Below are positions 3,468 to 7,340 of a DNA stretch of 22,765 nt, piece by piece. How positions within the stretch are numbered: the stretch's first letter is position 1; every line of letters starts with the position of its first letter. The notes beneath the pieces are model-generated. The model was not told the origin of the DNA. It searched no databases and saw only the letters and a list, made by a program, of their open reading frames with translations. The position numbers and the translations under genes were made by a program. Source of the DNA: a virus. The DNA lies in the IMG/VR virus record IMGVR_UViG_3300043331_000668, positions 1 to 22,765 of that record. The stretch is one strand, 5' to 3'.

Positions 3468-3718
3468 ACCGCTCGATCCCCCCAGCCCGAACCCCGCTGG
3501 AGCGGGAACTGGAGCGAATCCAGATTCGCGTCACCCAAGGCGAGCTGGCCGAACTCCACCGCCGGGAGCTCATCGCCCGGCTCTACGAGCAGGGGATGAC
3601 CCAAGTCGAGATCGCCGCCCGCCTGACGAGAGCCGCCAAGCGCGCCGGTGGCAAGGCCGTGGGCGAAGATGCGGTGCAGAAGAACGTGAGGAAGTGGCGG
3701 ATGAAGGGAGCGGCATGA
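3464..3718 (+). CDS. Small helix-turn-helix protein
   Basis: 84 residues from the GTG at 3464, overlapping the previous stop (GTGA). RELIARLYEQGMTQVEIAARL is a textbook helix-turn-helix opening, followed by a basic recognition segment (GEDAVQKNVRKWRMKG). Probably a DNA-binding protein. Position directly before the ParB-like gene (ATGA overlap) suggests a regulator or DNA-targeting partner for the modification genes, which is inference. Confidence 0.72.
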   Translation: MNRSIPPARTPLERELERIQIRVTQGELAELHRRELIARLYEQGMTQVEIAARLTRAAKRAGGKAVGEDAVQKNVRKWRMKGAA

Positions 3719-4350
3719 ACATCGTCCAGCAGGAATTCGATCCCGAAGTCCCGATCGACAAGATCAGCGAGCACCCCAACAATCCACGGCGAGGGGACGA
3801 CGCCGTGGTCGCGCAGAGCATCAAGCACAACGGCTGGTTCGGGGCGGTGTTGATCCAGCGCTCGACGGGGTGGGTGATCGCCGGGAACACGAGGTTCCGG
3901 GTGCTGCGCGACCAGGGGGCCAAGACAATCCCGGCCTTCTGGCTCGACGTCGATGACGCAACGGCCAAGAAGATCATGCTGGTCGACAACCGCAGCTCGG
4001 ACCTGGCGTTCTACGACGACACCGAGCTGTTCGGCTTGCTGCAACAGCTGGTCGAGAGCGACGGCGGGGCGGGCCTGGAAGCGGCAGGCTACGACCGCGC
4101 CGCCTACGAGCTGCTGCTCCAGAGCATCGAGTCGGACACCATCATCGGCGGCATCCGCCAGGGGCTCACCCCCGACGACCGGCTCGACGCGTACAACGAG
4201 CTCGACGTCAGGTCGATCATCCTGCCCTACGGCCCCAACGACTACGAGACCGTCGCCGGTGGGCTGTCCAAGCTGCGCGAGCGGTTCGGCCTCCAGACCA
4301 ACGCCGAAGTCGTCCAGCGCCTCGTCGCCGACGTGTTGACGGCGGTCTAG
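3715..4350 (+). CDS. ParB/sulfiredoxin-fold nuclease-like domain protein
   Basis: 211 residues. The N-terminal half matches the ParB-N fold: PIDKISEHPNNPRRGDDAV, then SIKHNGWFGAVLIQR, WVIAGNTRFRVLRDQGAKTI (GNTRF at residues 57-61 replaces the usual GxHR box), and IMLVDNRSSDLA. The C-terminal part (about 155-211) is a small helical module. The ParB fold is known as a CTPase/nuclease domain and is common in phage genes beside DNA-modifying enzymes. The start ATG overlaps the previous stop and follows AAGGGAG. It precedes the dioxygenase by a TAGTG junction, so it belongs to the same unit. Its exact activity is unknown. Confidence 0.82.
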   Translation: MNIVQQEFDPEVPIDKISEHPNNPRRGDDAVVAQSIKHNGWFGAVLIQRSTGWVIAGNTRFRVLRDQGAKTIPAFWLDVDDATAKKIMLVDNRSSDLAFYDDTELFGLLQQLVESDGGAGLEAAGYDRAAYELLLQSIESDTIIGGIRQGLTPDDRLDAYNELDVRSIILPYGPNDYETVAGGLSKLRERFGLQTNAEVVQRLVADVLTAV

Positions 4351-5360
4351 TGCGCCGCGAGAACACCCCGATCAAACGGCTGGAGCTGGAGCGCCAGGCC
4401 CCACTGGTGCCGTGCGCCTACGCCGAAGGGCATAAGGACCAGTGGGACGGTCGGGTGCTCAGCTGCGGGGAGATGATTCCGTTCAAGCCGCGCCAGCCGT
4501 GCCCTTCCTGTAGTCAGATGCAGATCCGGGCCAATCCCCGCCACCCCACCGAGCGCGACCGCGTGCTCACCGAGGACACCGCCATCGTCGACGCCGCCAC
4601 GGGCGAAGTGGTCGTCGTCTACGTGGTCCCGGCCAGGCACCTCGCCACCCGCTTGGCCAACGCGCTGGCGAAGGTCAGGTTCGAACCGGGTGGGTGGGAC
4701 CGGGACTTCTTCGGCCCCAACGCCAGCACCACCACGCGCCTCAGCGGGGTCGTCGTCACTCACGCCACCTTCGGCTATCAGCCTCCAGCCCCGATGCGCC
4801 GCCGGTGGGCCTGCTGCCGGAGCCAGTTCAACGACCGCAATGCCGAAGCGATGGGCGTGCTCACCGAGTTCTGCCGTCTGGCGGAGCACGTCTTCCGCAT
4901 CCAGGCCCCCGACGTACACGATCGCACCGCCGGGCGGGTCCGTGACCTGATCGCCCCGGCCTGGCTGATCGGGGGCACGCCGTGGACCTCGGGCATCATC
5001 AACCGCACCGCCGCCCTGCCCTATCACCGTGACCAGTCGAACGTCCCCGGCTCCTGGTCGGCGATGCTGGGCTGCCGCCGCGAAGTCGAAGGCGGGATGC
5101 TGCACCTGGCCGACTACAACGTCTACCTTCCCGTCGAGCACGGCAGCATCACGATCCTGGACGGTCAGTCCGTCGTCCACGGGGTCACCCCGCTGCACCT
5201 GGCGGCCAGTCGCGGCTTCCGCTACACGGTCGTCACCTACGCCAAGACGGCGATGAGCAAGTGCGCCGAGGACCCCGCTCACGAACTGCGCCGAGCCCAG
5301 CTGGCCGCCACGATGGCCGAGGAGGCCAAGCGGGACCGTCTCACCGCGGCAGGCCGATGA
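4350..5360 (+). CDS. TET/JBP-family 2-oxoglutarate/Fe(II) dioxygenase
   Basis: 336 residues from the GTG at 4350. The C-terminal half has the full double-stranded beta-helix signature: SGIINRTAALPYHRD (metal ligands H226 and D228), WSAMLGCR, VEGGMLHLADY, GSITILDGQSVVHGVTP (third ligand H277), and FRYTVV with R291 for the 2-oxoglutarate carboxylate. SGIxN before HxD and DGQxxxHGVTP are characteristic of phage TET/JBP enzymes, which oxidise the methyl group of 5-methylcytosine or thymine in DNA. The N-terminus has C22, C39 and CPSC (51-54), a possible zinc site. It is coupled to the transferase (ATGA). The substrate cannot be read from sequence alone. An unrelated 2OG oxygenase is the main alternative but less likely given the neighbours. 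Confidence 0.87.
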   Translation: MRRENTPIKRLELERQAPLVPCAYAEGHKDQWDGRVLSCGEMIPFKPRQPCPSCSQMQIRANPRHPTERDRVLTEDTAIVDAATGEVVVVYVVPARHLATRLANALAKVRFEPGGWDRDFFGPNASTTTRLSGVVVTHATFGYQPPAPMRRRWACCRSQFNDRNAEAMGVLTEFCRLAEHVFRIQAPDVHDRTAGRVRDLIAPAWLIGGTPWTSGIINRTAALPYHRDQSNVPGSWSAMLGCRREVEGGMLHLADYNVYLPVEHGSITILDGQSVVHGVTPLHLAASRGFRYTVVTYAKTAMSKCAEDPAHELRRAQLAATMAEEAKRDRLTAAGR

Positions 5361-6352
5361 CCGACCACTGGCGGCTGTTCAGTGAGTTCTGCCGCTACGA
5401 GAAGGCGGTCGGCGGGCCCAGCGCGCACCTGTGCATGGTCGCCGGGATGAGTCACGGTCTCCCCGTGCACGAGCAGGTGTGGCGGGCGGGCTGCTACGCG
5501 GCGTTCTACAACACGGGCAGCGCGATGGCGCTGTGGAGTCACCTCAGCCACGACGAGGTGCTCGCCAGCAGCGAGGACGAGCTGCGTGACGGGCTCACTG
5601 ACTGCTGGGATGGACTTACCTTCCACCGCCACCGCCGGGCCATCCGCCGCTCGGACAAGCTGGCCCACTACCTGCGCGCCTACGCGCTGCGCTCACGCGA
5701 CTGGCCGGACCGGGACTGGTGGCACGGCGCGCCCTCCCCGGCGAACTACCAAGCCGCCTGGAACGACGTACTTGGCGTGTATGGAGTCGGCCGCTACATC
5801 GCCATCCGCATCCTGGAGCTGTTCTCCCGCTTTGGGGCGGGGACGGCGCTGCACGACATCCGGGCCCGCGACGCGGCATCGCCCCGGCGCACGCTGTCGC
5901 TGCTGTGGCCCCAGCACACCCGCGTATTGTCGACCGACAACAGCTTGGCCGGGGCGGCCAAGTCGGAGTCGATCGCCAACACCACGCTGCGCCGGGTGCG
6001 CGACGAGTGGGGCGTCGAGCTCAATCACTACGAGCTCCAGGTGATGACCTGCGAGTACCACCAGTCGATCGACAACCGCAAGCAGTTCCCCGGCAAGAGC
6101 ATCGACGGCGAGGCCAAGGCACTGCGCGCCGCCGAGCCGTACTGGGGCACGGCGCTGACCGAACCCGGCTGGGGAATGCGGCGGGAGCTGTTCCCCGAGG
6201 TGTCGCTGGGCGAAATCCACGGATGGACCTCCCGTGACGAGCTGGGCGCCGTCGCCGCCGACTACGGGTACACCTGGAGCGACCTGCGCTACGACTACAA
6301 GGCGACGCGCGACCTGGCGCATCCGGCCGTGCGGGAATCCTCACTGGTGTGA
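5357..6352 (+). CDS. aGPT-Pplase-type amino acid:DNA transferase
   Basis: 331 residues from the ATG overlapping the dioxygenase stop. Features of the aGPT-Pplase family (alpha-glutamyl/putrescinyl-thymine pyrophosphorylase, distantly related to HhH DNA glycosylases): an all-helical body, YNTGSAMALWSHLS (51-64), RRAIRRSDKLAHYLRAY (93-109), the hairpin VYGVGRYIAIRILELF (141-156), and TCEYHQSIDNRKQFPGKSID (231-250), which matches the conserved CEY...GKxID box. Known members transfer an amino acid or polyamine onto phosphorylated hydroxymethyl-pyrimidines in phage DNA. The dioxygenase upstream and kinase downstream support this. The acceptor amine is unknown. A helical glycosylase homologue with another role is the alternative. 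Confidence 0.78.
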   Translation: MTDHWRLFSEFCRYEKAVGGPSAHLCMVAGMSHGLPVHEQVWRAGCYAAFYNTGSAMALWSHLSHDEVLASSEDELRDGLTDCWDGLTFHRHRRAIRRSDKLAHYLRAYALRSRDWPDRDWWHGAPSPANYQAAWNDVLGVYGVGRYIAIRILELFSRFGAGTALHDIRARDAASPRRTLSLLWPQHTRVLSTDNSLAGAAKSESIANTTLRRVRDEWGVELNHYELQVMTCEYHQSIDNRKQFPGKSIDGEAKALRAAEPYWGTALTEPGWGMRRELFPEVSLGEIHGWTSRDELGAVAADYGYTWSDLRYDYKATRDLAHPAVRESSLV

Positions 6353-6807
6353 AGACGTTGATGTACGACGTCGGTGAGGGCCGGGTGTTCATGGGCCCGC
6401 AGCTGCTCGACGTCCCCGCCCTGCCCAAGGCGACCGCGATGACCGAGCGGGGCATCACGATGGTGATCAACCTGTGGCATGGGCGTGACGATGCCCTCGC
6501 TGCTGCGGTAGCTGATTACGTCCACGTTCCAGTACCCGACGGCCGAATGAACGATGACAGCTTCGCCCACTACGACGTCCACGCCCGGCTTGCCGCGCGT
6601 GCCGTGGCCAACGGGGGCAGCGTGCTCACTCAATGCCAGGGGGGCCGCAATCGCAGCGGCCTGCTGGCTGGGCTGACGCTGTGCTACTGGCTCGGTATCA
6701 GCGGTAACGAAGCCGTGGCGCGCGTGCGCGCCGGTCGAGGCGGAGTCGCCATCCGCAACCCCCACTTTCAGTCGTGGTTGAAGTCGATCCCGGCGCACGC
6801 GGCATGA
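6349..6807 (+). CDS. Dual-specificity/tyrosine phosphatase-like protein
   Basis: 152 residues from GTG at 6349 (GTGA overlap with the transferase). The CX5R signature loop is present: TQCQGGRNRSGL, with nucleophile C96 and R102 followed by S103. The upstream VPVPDGRMND offers D64 as possible general acid. The order of elements (MTERGITMVINLW, then the acidic loop, then the CX5R loop and a C-terminal helix) is that of compact cysteine-dependent phosphatases. Being sandwiched between transferase and kinase suggests the target is a phosphorylated base, nucleotide or modification enzyme, but this is inference. It could also act on host proteins. Confidence 0.82.
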   Translation: MKTLMYDVGEGRVFMGPQLLDVPALPKATAMTERGITMVINLWHGRDDALAAAVADYVHVPVPDGRMNDDSFAHYDVHARLAARAVANGGSVLTQCQGGRNRSGLLAGLTLCYWLGISGNEAVARVRAGRGGVAIRNPHFQSWLKSIPAHAA

Positions 6808-7340
6808 TCTACTACGCCGTCATCGGCCCCCCCGGGGTGGGCAAGACGACGGCGGTGCAGCGAGCACTCGGCCCACCTACCAGCCAACTTGTGAACCCGG
6901 TTCCGCACTTGATCTACGGCGACGGCGGGCTGATCCAGTTGGGCCGGATCCGCCCGCCGATGAGCGGCACCGACGCCCTCAGCATGTCGATCGCCCCCGC
7001 CGCGCTGGAGTTCCTCCGCGCCGAGCCAGCGCCCAAGGTGGTAGCTGAAGGCGACCGGCTGGCATCGGGCAAGTTCCTCGACGCCGTGGCGAAGTTCGCG
7101 CGGGTGGTGGTCGTGCTCATCGACGCCCCGGCGTGGGAGTGTCGCCAGCGAGCCTCAGCTCGGGGATCGAACCAAGACCCGAGCTGGTTCAAGGGTCGGC
7201 TGACCAAGTTGGATAACCTGATCGCGGAGCGACCGCACGTCAGGATCAGTGGCAGGCAGTCGCCGGTGGGCGTGGCCGTGGACCTCGCCGCGACGCTTGG
7301 CCTACCGGGGCCCCGCGGCCCCGGCCTCGACAGCTTCTGA
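6804..7340 (+). CDS. P-loop kinase, probable 5-hydroxymethylpyrimidine DNA kinase
   Basis: 178 residues from ATG at 6804 (ATGA overlap). Walker A GPPGVGKTT at residues 8-16, then the family-typical MSGTDALSM (53-61), VVAEGDRLASGKF (79-91), LIDAP (105-109) and an Arg-rich lid (CRQRASARG). The GTDxLS and EGDR boxes are what I associate with the hydroxymethyl-uracil/cytosine DNA kinases of hypermodifying phages, which phosphorylate the hydroxymethyl group on DNA. Last gene of the rightward operon. Its 3' end overlaps the convergent gene ending at 7302 by 39 bases. The alternative is a nucleoside or nucleotide kinase. Confidence 0.82.
   Translation: MIYYAVIGPPGVGKTTAVQRALGPPTSQLVNPVPHLIYGDGGLIQLGRIRPPMSGTDALSMSIAPAALEFLRAEPAPKVVAEGDRLASGKFLDAVAKFARVVVVLIDAPAWECRQRASARGSNQDPSWFKGRLTKLDNLIAERPHVRISGRQSPVGVAVDLAATLGLPGPRGPGLDSF

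Follow-up and report, generated by a model that had tools for sequence, protein, structure and literature searches.

In the base hypermodification pathways known from phages, a transferase displaces a phosphate carried by the base, and the 5-(2-aminoethoxy)methyl-dU of phage ViI derives from serine. Where a kinase and an ADDT act together, the hydroxymethyl group is phosphorylated and that phosphate is then displaced; the modified base of ViI is 5-(2-aminoethoxy)methyl-dU (PMC6449724). The stretch of DNA analyzed here, a 22.8-kb IMG/VR record (hereafter the window), resembles the 5hmU DNA kinase/ADDT systems of M6, ViI, PhiW-14 and Rhodococcus phage Tonitrus in its predicted hydroxymethyl-pyrimidine, base kinase and ADDT-type transferase, and its ParB-TET-aGPT-kinase gene order is that of phages Tonitrus and Wooper. 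However, a DSPc domain was found in none of the 5hmU kinase/ADDT phages searched, and the ADDT of the window falls into a different clade.

The leftmost module gene identified in the window encodes a ParB_N-domain protein (3694..4350, plus strand; PF02195, 31.1 bits), a neighbor that is also present in three relatives. This gene is followed, on the same strand, by a TET/JBP dioxygenase (4350..5360), which scores 39.9 bits against PF12851 (above the cut-off), shows 28-60% identity to other phage TETs and would produce hydroxymethyl-pyrimidine in DNA; by an ADDT-like (aGPT-Pplase) DNA-base transferase (5357..6352), which was recognized by homology and overlaps the TET gene in an ATGA; by a phosphatase (6349..6807); and by a P-loop kinase (Ploopntkinase3; 6804..7340; PF18751, 67.5 bits), which has a homologue annotated as "5-hmU DNA kinase" in phage Wooper and would add a phosphate to the hydroxymethyl base. 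As the transferase gene ends at 6352, its TGA (6350-6352) overlaps the phosphatase GTG (6349-6351) as GTGA, and the ATG of the kinase gene (6804-6806) shares two bases with the phosphatase TGA (6805-6807), giving ATGA; the first-pass annotation, which had placed the phosphatase between transferase and kinase with these two overlaps, is thus exact by coordinates. Its further claim that the phosphatase is embedded in a base-modification operon is borne out by Pfam and profile matches of the neighboring genes, and TET, ADDT-like transferase and P-loop kinase lie in one gene cluster, as in a TET-ADDT-kinase thymidine hypermodification module. The modification genes run rightward up to 7340, and the long ORFs past that position apparently run in the opposite direction. 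Two PHROG labels mislead in this region: phrog_6059 ("queuine tRNA-ribosyltransferase") on the TET gene (4350-5360) and phrog_800 ("terminase small subunit") on the base kinase gene (6804-7340). Neither a megablast of the whole window nor tblastn with its phosphatase and ADDT gave a match among 50,697 phage records; the GC content of the window is 68%, and its TET is similar to actinophage TETs.

We refer to the window transferase as ADDT-like because its own protein gives no Pfam match: it did not match PF18724, and no Pfam family was found at E≤1. Assignment to the ADDT/aGPT group rests on homology, i.e., on a match (E 2e-6) to the phage Wooper protein annotated as aGPT-Pplase2, on PF18724 matches in 14 of its 16 aligned homologues, and on matches of the family profile to PDB 25qc (2e-13) and to the glycinyltransferase 8z2m (5e-6).

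With regard to the phosphatase, the ORF at 6349-6807 has a GTG start and encodes 152 amino acids, with the motif C96-Q-G-G-R-N-R102-S; the catalytic P-loop CQGGRNR is encoded at 6634..6654 (plus strand; TGC at 6634-6636, CGC at 6652-6654), and the predicted general acid, D64, at 6538..6540 (plus strand), D64 preceding C96 by 32 residues, a DSP-like spacing. The protein scores 35.6 bits against the Pfam family DSPc (PF00782; gathering cut-off 33.5). Across 51 relatives, C96, G99 and N101 are each conserved in 50, R102 in all 51 and D64 in 47, and this retention of C96, R102 and D64 places the motif beyond chance. An AlphaFold2 model built from six relatives (pLDDT 82.6) matched human DUSPs (Z 13-14.5) and archaeal PTPs among solved structures. 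The CX5R phosphatase with C96 and R102 proposed for this ORF is therefore present as claimed, by ORF, motif, PF00782 and conservation, and its product is, as judged from sequence and model, a dual-specificity-type phosphatase (DSP) with an intact predicted catalytic set. It shares the DSP fold (Z about 14), the CX5R loop and the general acid with DUSP28, DUSP5 and Tk-PTP, but differs from them in a nearly invariant GxNR, where aligned relatives have GxSR or GxGR, and in its gene context; a DSP-profile search of 84,980 bacterial and archaeal genomes, run twice, confirmed no relative. Baculovirus BVP and PIR1 carry HCxxGxNRTG, with the N ahead of the catalytic R as in the window DSP. These RNA 5'-triphosphatase/phosphatase CX5R enzymes share its fold class, and the fold matches include BVP (1yn9); however, the sequence match is weak (E 0.31), BVP is not the closest fold and the window has no RNA-processing context, so that an RNA-triphosphatase reading of the GxNR motif is supported neither by sequence nor by fold rank. 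The bacterial-type DSP of PDB entry 25xa does not have GRNR. In one related locus (L112:2037-2378), a second, tandem DSP copy has Ser in place of the catalytic Cys (ISYFGKNR) and is likely, by its sequence, a pseudophosphatase; the label of phrog_17568 ("thymidylate synthase"), which matches the DSPs of loci L106 and L098, misleads.

A survey of IMG/VR showed a near-obligate linkage of this phosphatase to ADDT and kinase. Among 80 loci retrieved with a TET query, DSP matches were few, each within an ADDT-kinase operon; a DSP-profile scan found 22 loci, all 22 with ADDT immediately upstream; and an ADDT-clade scan found DSP in 54 of 56 loci, the two without it being the two most distant matches. 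The E-values of the DSP, ADDT, TET and kinase searches in these loci come from models built from the matches themselves. Removal of near-duplicates left about 49 distinct ADDT+DSP loci, 48 of them with a kinase; in three relatives, ADDT and DSP lie together on one strand and kinase, TET and ParB on the other. Rare co-occurrence outside this phage, which the first-pass annotation had named as grounds for rejecting its proposal, is contradicted by the 22/22 and 54/56 loci obtained with different queries, and the same counts rule out a chance insertion of the DSP in one phage. When 38 ADDTs were placed in a tree, one branch, supported at 100/98, divided the 22 with DSP from the 16 without, and the DSP-linked ADDTs form one clade; the tree members were chosen via DSP or TET, whereas the later ADDT-based scan was not so chosen. 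Evolutionary distances correlate between ADDT and DSP (r 0.59), ADDT and kinase (0.38) and DSP and kinase (0.22), each value being reached by none of 2000 permutations. Fusions occur with both partners: an ADDT-DSP protein of 503 amino acids in loci L140 and L141, which are identical over their shared 13.5 kb, and a DSP-kinase protein of 355 amino acids in L106, in which an internal ATG is preceded by a good ribosome-binding site, so that separate production of the kinase is also possible. Downstream of the kinase lies HMUDK_hel (PF18723) at L118:9033-9950, L111:9019-9909 and L140:10429-11307, and HMUDK_HMUD1 (PF18748) comes after the DSP at L099:7383-8207, a locus in which no P-loop kinase was found. 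The literature searched, which did not extend to the main pathway papers, contained no phosphatase as a fixed partner in phage base hypermodification, and searches for phage DNA modification with a phosphatase or an inositol synthase gave nothing relevant.

These data bear on two of the roles that the enzyme might have. DSPs are generally protein phosphatases, and DUSPs and archaeal PTPs are the closest structures here, as would suit an enzyme that acts on host or phage phosphoproteins during host takeover and merely shares the operon; we regard such a role as very improbable, given the near-perfect linkage to one ADDT clade at 49 distinct loci, the ADDT-DSP distance correlation, the fusion of DSP to both DNA-modifying partners and the location of remote DSP relatives in cultured actinophages elsewhere in the genome, distant from ADDT. 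The main rival to the reading that we favor, already suggested in the first-pass annotation, is clean-up or editing, in which the DSP would hydrolyze 5-phosphomethyl-pyrimidines that stay behind in DNA if the kinase works faster than the transferase, and would so give back the hydroxymethyl bases. Linkage and fusion of the kinase, transferase and DSP genes fit this role; phosphorylated 5hmU templates were transcribed in vitro at 37% of unmodified DNA and about 10% of 5hmU (PMC6457204), so that leftover phosphate would be costly, and a PhiW-14 mutant builds up pyrophosphorylated base (PMC5977210). However, DSPc is absent from the whole of each of 22 TET/ADDT phage records that fall outside the clade, most of which carry a kinase and four of which are complete genomes of cultured phages; removal of the kinase-added phosphate is therefore not a general need, and we consider clean-up unlikely.

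The source of the hydroxymethyl-pyrimidine varies among phages with this DSP. Among 48 DSP records, which include two near-duplicates and many fragments, so that absences are weak, 17 carry TET and 22 carry a thymidylate-synthase (TS) family gene (PF00303), and none carries both, against 7.8 expected by chance (P about 7e-7). The nearest solved structure to one of the PF00303 proteins is a CMP 5-hydroxymethylase, and no C5-cytosine methylase was found in most TET-type records. Since roughly two thirds of the DSP records gave no TET match, TET was rejected as the partner tracked by DSP: the co-occurrence with TET, aGPT-Pplase and kinase proposed for survey holds for one ADDT clade and the kinase but does not extend to TET, and DSP thus goes with ADDT and kinase. 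If this reading is right, the ADDT-DSP-kinase core plugs into either TET or a TS-family enzyme. A TS-family enzyme would make hydroxymethyl-dNMP, and its presence in many members is in line with a DSP that acts in the nucleotide pool, on modified dNMPs or nucleotides; nevertheless, the DSP is kept in the 17 of 48 records that have the polymer-acting TET and in which no TS-family enzyme was found, and we consider this role the least probable of those weighed here.

Genes that adjoin ADDT in TET-less members encode inositol-phosphate synthases. PF01658 was found in 18 of the 48 DSP records vs 0 of the 22 controls, and all 18 synthase genes precede ADDT on its strand, the distance being either 8-29 nt or 550-880 nt, the latter roughly the length of one gene; in one record of only 4.6 kb, the synthase is accompanied by ADDT, DSP, kinase and a TS-family gene. 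The best NCBIfam match of the ADDT-adjacent synthase is TIGR03450 (mycothiol INO1), below the cut-off. As the synthase lies beside ADDT in many of the DSP records and in none of the controls, we favor the DSP as an inositol-phosphate phosphatase, acting on free or DNA-bound substrate; the clean-up of base phosphates leaves this neighbor unexplained. We put the probability that the DSP is a dedicated enzyme of the ADDT-DSP-kinase module, most likely removing the phosphate of inositol phosphate, at roughly 0.48. The pathway would begin with hydroxymethyl-pyrimidine from TET or, in other phages, from a TS-family hydroxymethylase, the hydroxyl of which the kinase would convert to a phosphate leaving group. 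Inositol-3-phosphate synthase, of phage or host, would turn glucose-6-phosphate into inositol phosphate; the DSP-clade ADDT would then displace the base phosphate and attach the cyclitol to the base, and the DSP, acting either ahead of this transfer or following it, would take the phosphate off the cyclitol, to leave inositol on the base. The 5-(2-aminoethoxy)methyl-dU of ViI suggests, by analogy, that an ADDT could form such an O-linked product. The pairing has a parallel in the actinobacterial INO1 and inositol monophosphatase of mycothiol and phosphatidylinositol synthesis, in that the synthase next to ADDT is nearest TIGR03450 and that the known pathway has a phosphatase step after the synthase; here, by contrast, the phosphatase is of the CX5R DSP type rather than a metal-dependent inositol monophosphatase, and the proposed destination is DNA.

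Several observations speak against inositol as the transferred group and its phosphate as the DSP substrate. An inositol monophosphatase is commonly encoded by bacteria themselves, so that a phage phosphatase is not strictly required, and to our knowledge ADDTs have been characterized with amino acids and amines, not with inositol. The window DSP gave no match to the PTP-like cysteine phytase family (PF14566; Pfam, E≤1), and no synthase gene was found in 30 of the 48 DSP records, the 22.8-kb window among them; several of the 30 are short fragments. The window phage could draw on host inositol phosphate. A control search found the synthase in Corynebacterium glutamicum, which, together with the 68% GC of the window and its actinophage-like TET, is consistent with actinobacterial hosts that provide the synthase.

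Other neighbors are compatible with hydroxyl-rich or cyclitol chemistry but are no proof of it. Several operons contain FkbM-type methyltransferases, which are suited to hydroxyl-rich groups, and radical SAM/SPASM proteins are further neighbors. One synthase-less ADDT-DSP operon (L139:9405-11524) carries a GFO/IDH/MocA dehydrogenase and a StrS-family aminotransferase, enzyme types that are used in amino-cyclitol synthesis. Synthase-less members carry other tailoring genes, of the GFO/IDH/MocA, StrS and radical SAM/SPASM kinds, which would also suit a maturation scheme in which ADDT transfers some other phosphorylated nucleophile (amino-sugar phosphate, phosphoserine or phosphoethanolamine) that the DSP then unmasks; however, inositol synthase is the only recurrent ADDT-adjacent small-molecule biosynthetic gene that makes a phosphorylated product, and another nucleophile seems to us distinctly doubtful. 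Returning to inositol, the synthase linkage predicts a specific DNA base, inositol on hydroxymethyl-pyrimidine, and we tentatively suggest, as something a little short of an even chance, that a widespread and so far uncultured phage group makes inositol-bearing pyrimidines with synthase, kinase, the ADDT clade and DSP. We know of no described cyclitol DNA modification of this kind. If true, a cyclitol class would be added to the known DNA modifications, a phosphatase would become a core step of base hypermodification, and a new enzyme set to label DNA would be at hand.

Among cultured phages, tblastn with one such synthase matched only 18 of 50,697 records, from Stenotrophomonas phages and Caulobacter phage Cr30. 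In Cr30 (NC_025422, 48253-61389), TET, ADDT, inositol-1-phosphate synthase and kinase lie within 9 kb; the ADDT, annotated as hypothetical, matches PF18724 strongly (179 bits). No DSPc was found in Cr30, and the synthase-ADDT-kinase set can therefore exist without a DSP, which counts against the inositol reading and weakens any claim that the DSP is indispensable to inositol chemistry. The Cr30 record annotates the TET as an SNF2 repair protein and the P-loop kinase as a terminase small subunit, and a weak TAGT glycosyltransferase match lies in between. Finally, in the one Stenotrophomonas phage examined, Moby (NC_048802, 28981-33601), the synthase adjoins FolE-, QueC-, QueE- and TGT-like 7-deazaguanine genes, a second link of a phage inositol synthase with DNA modification.
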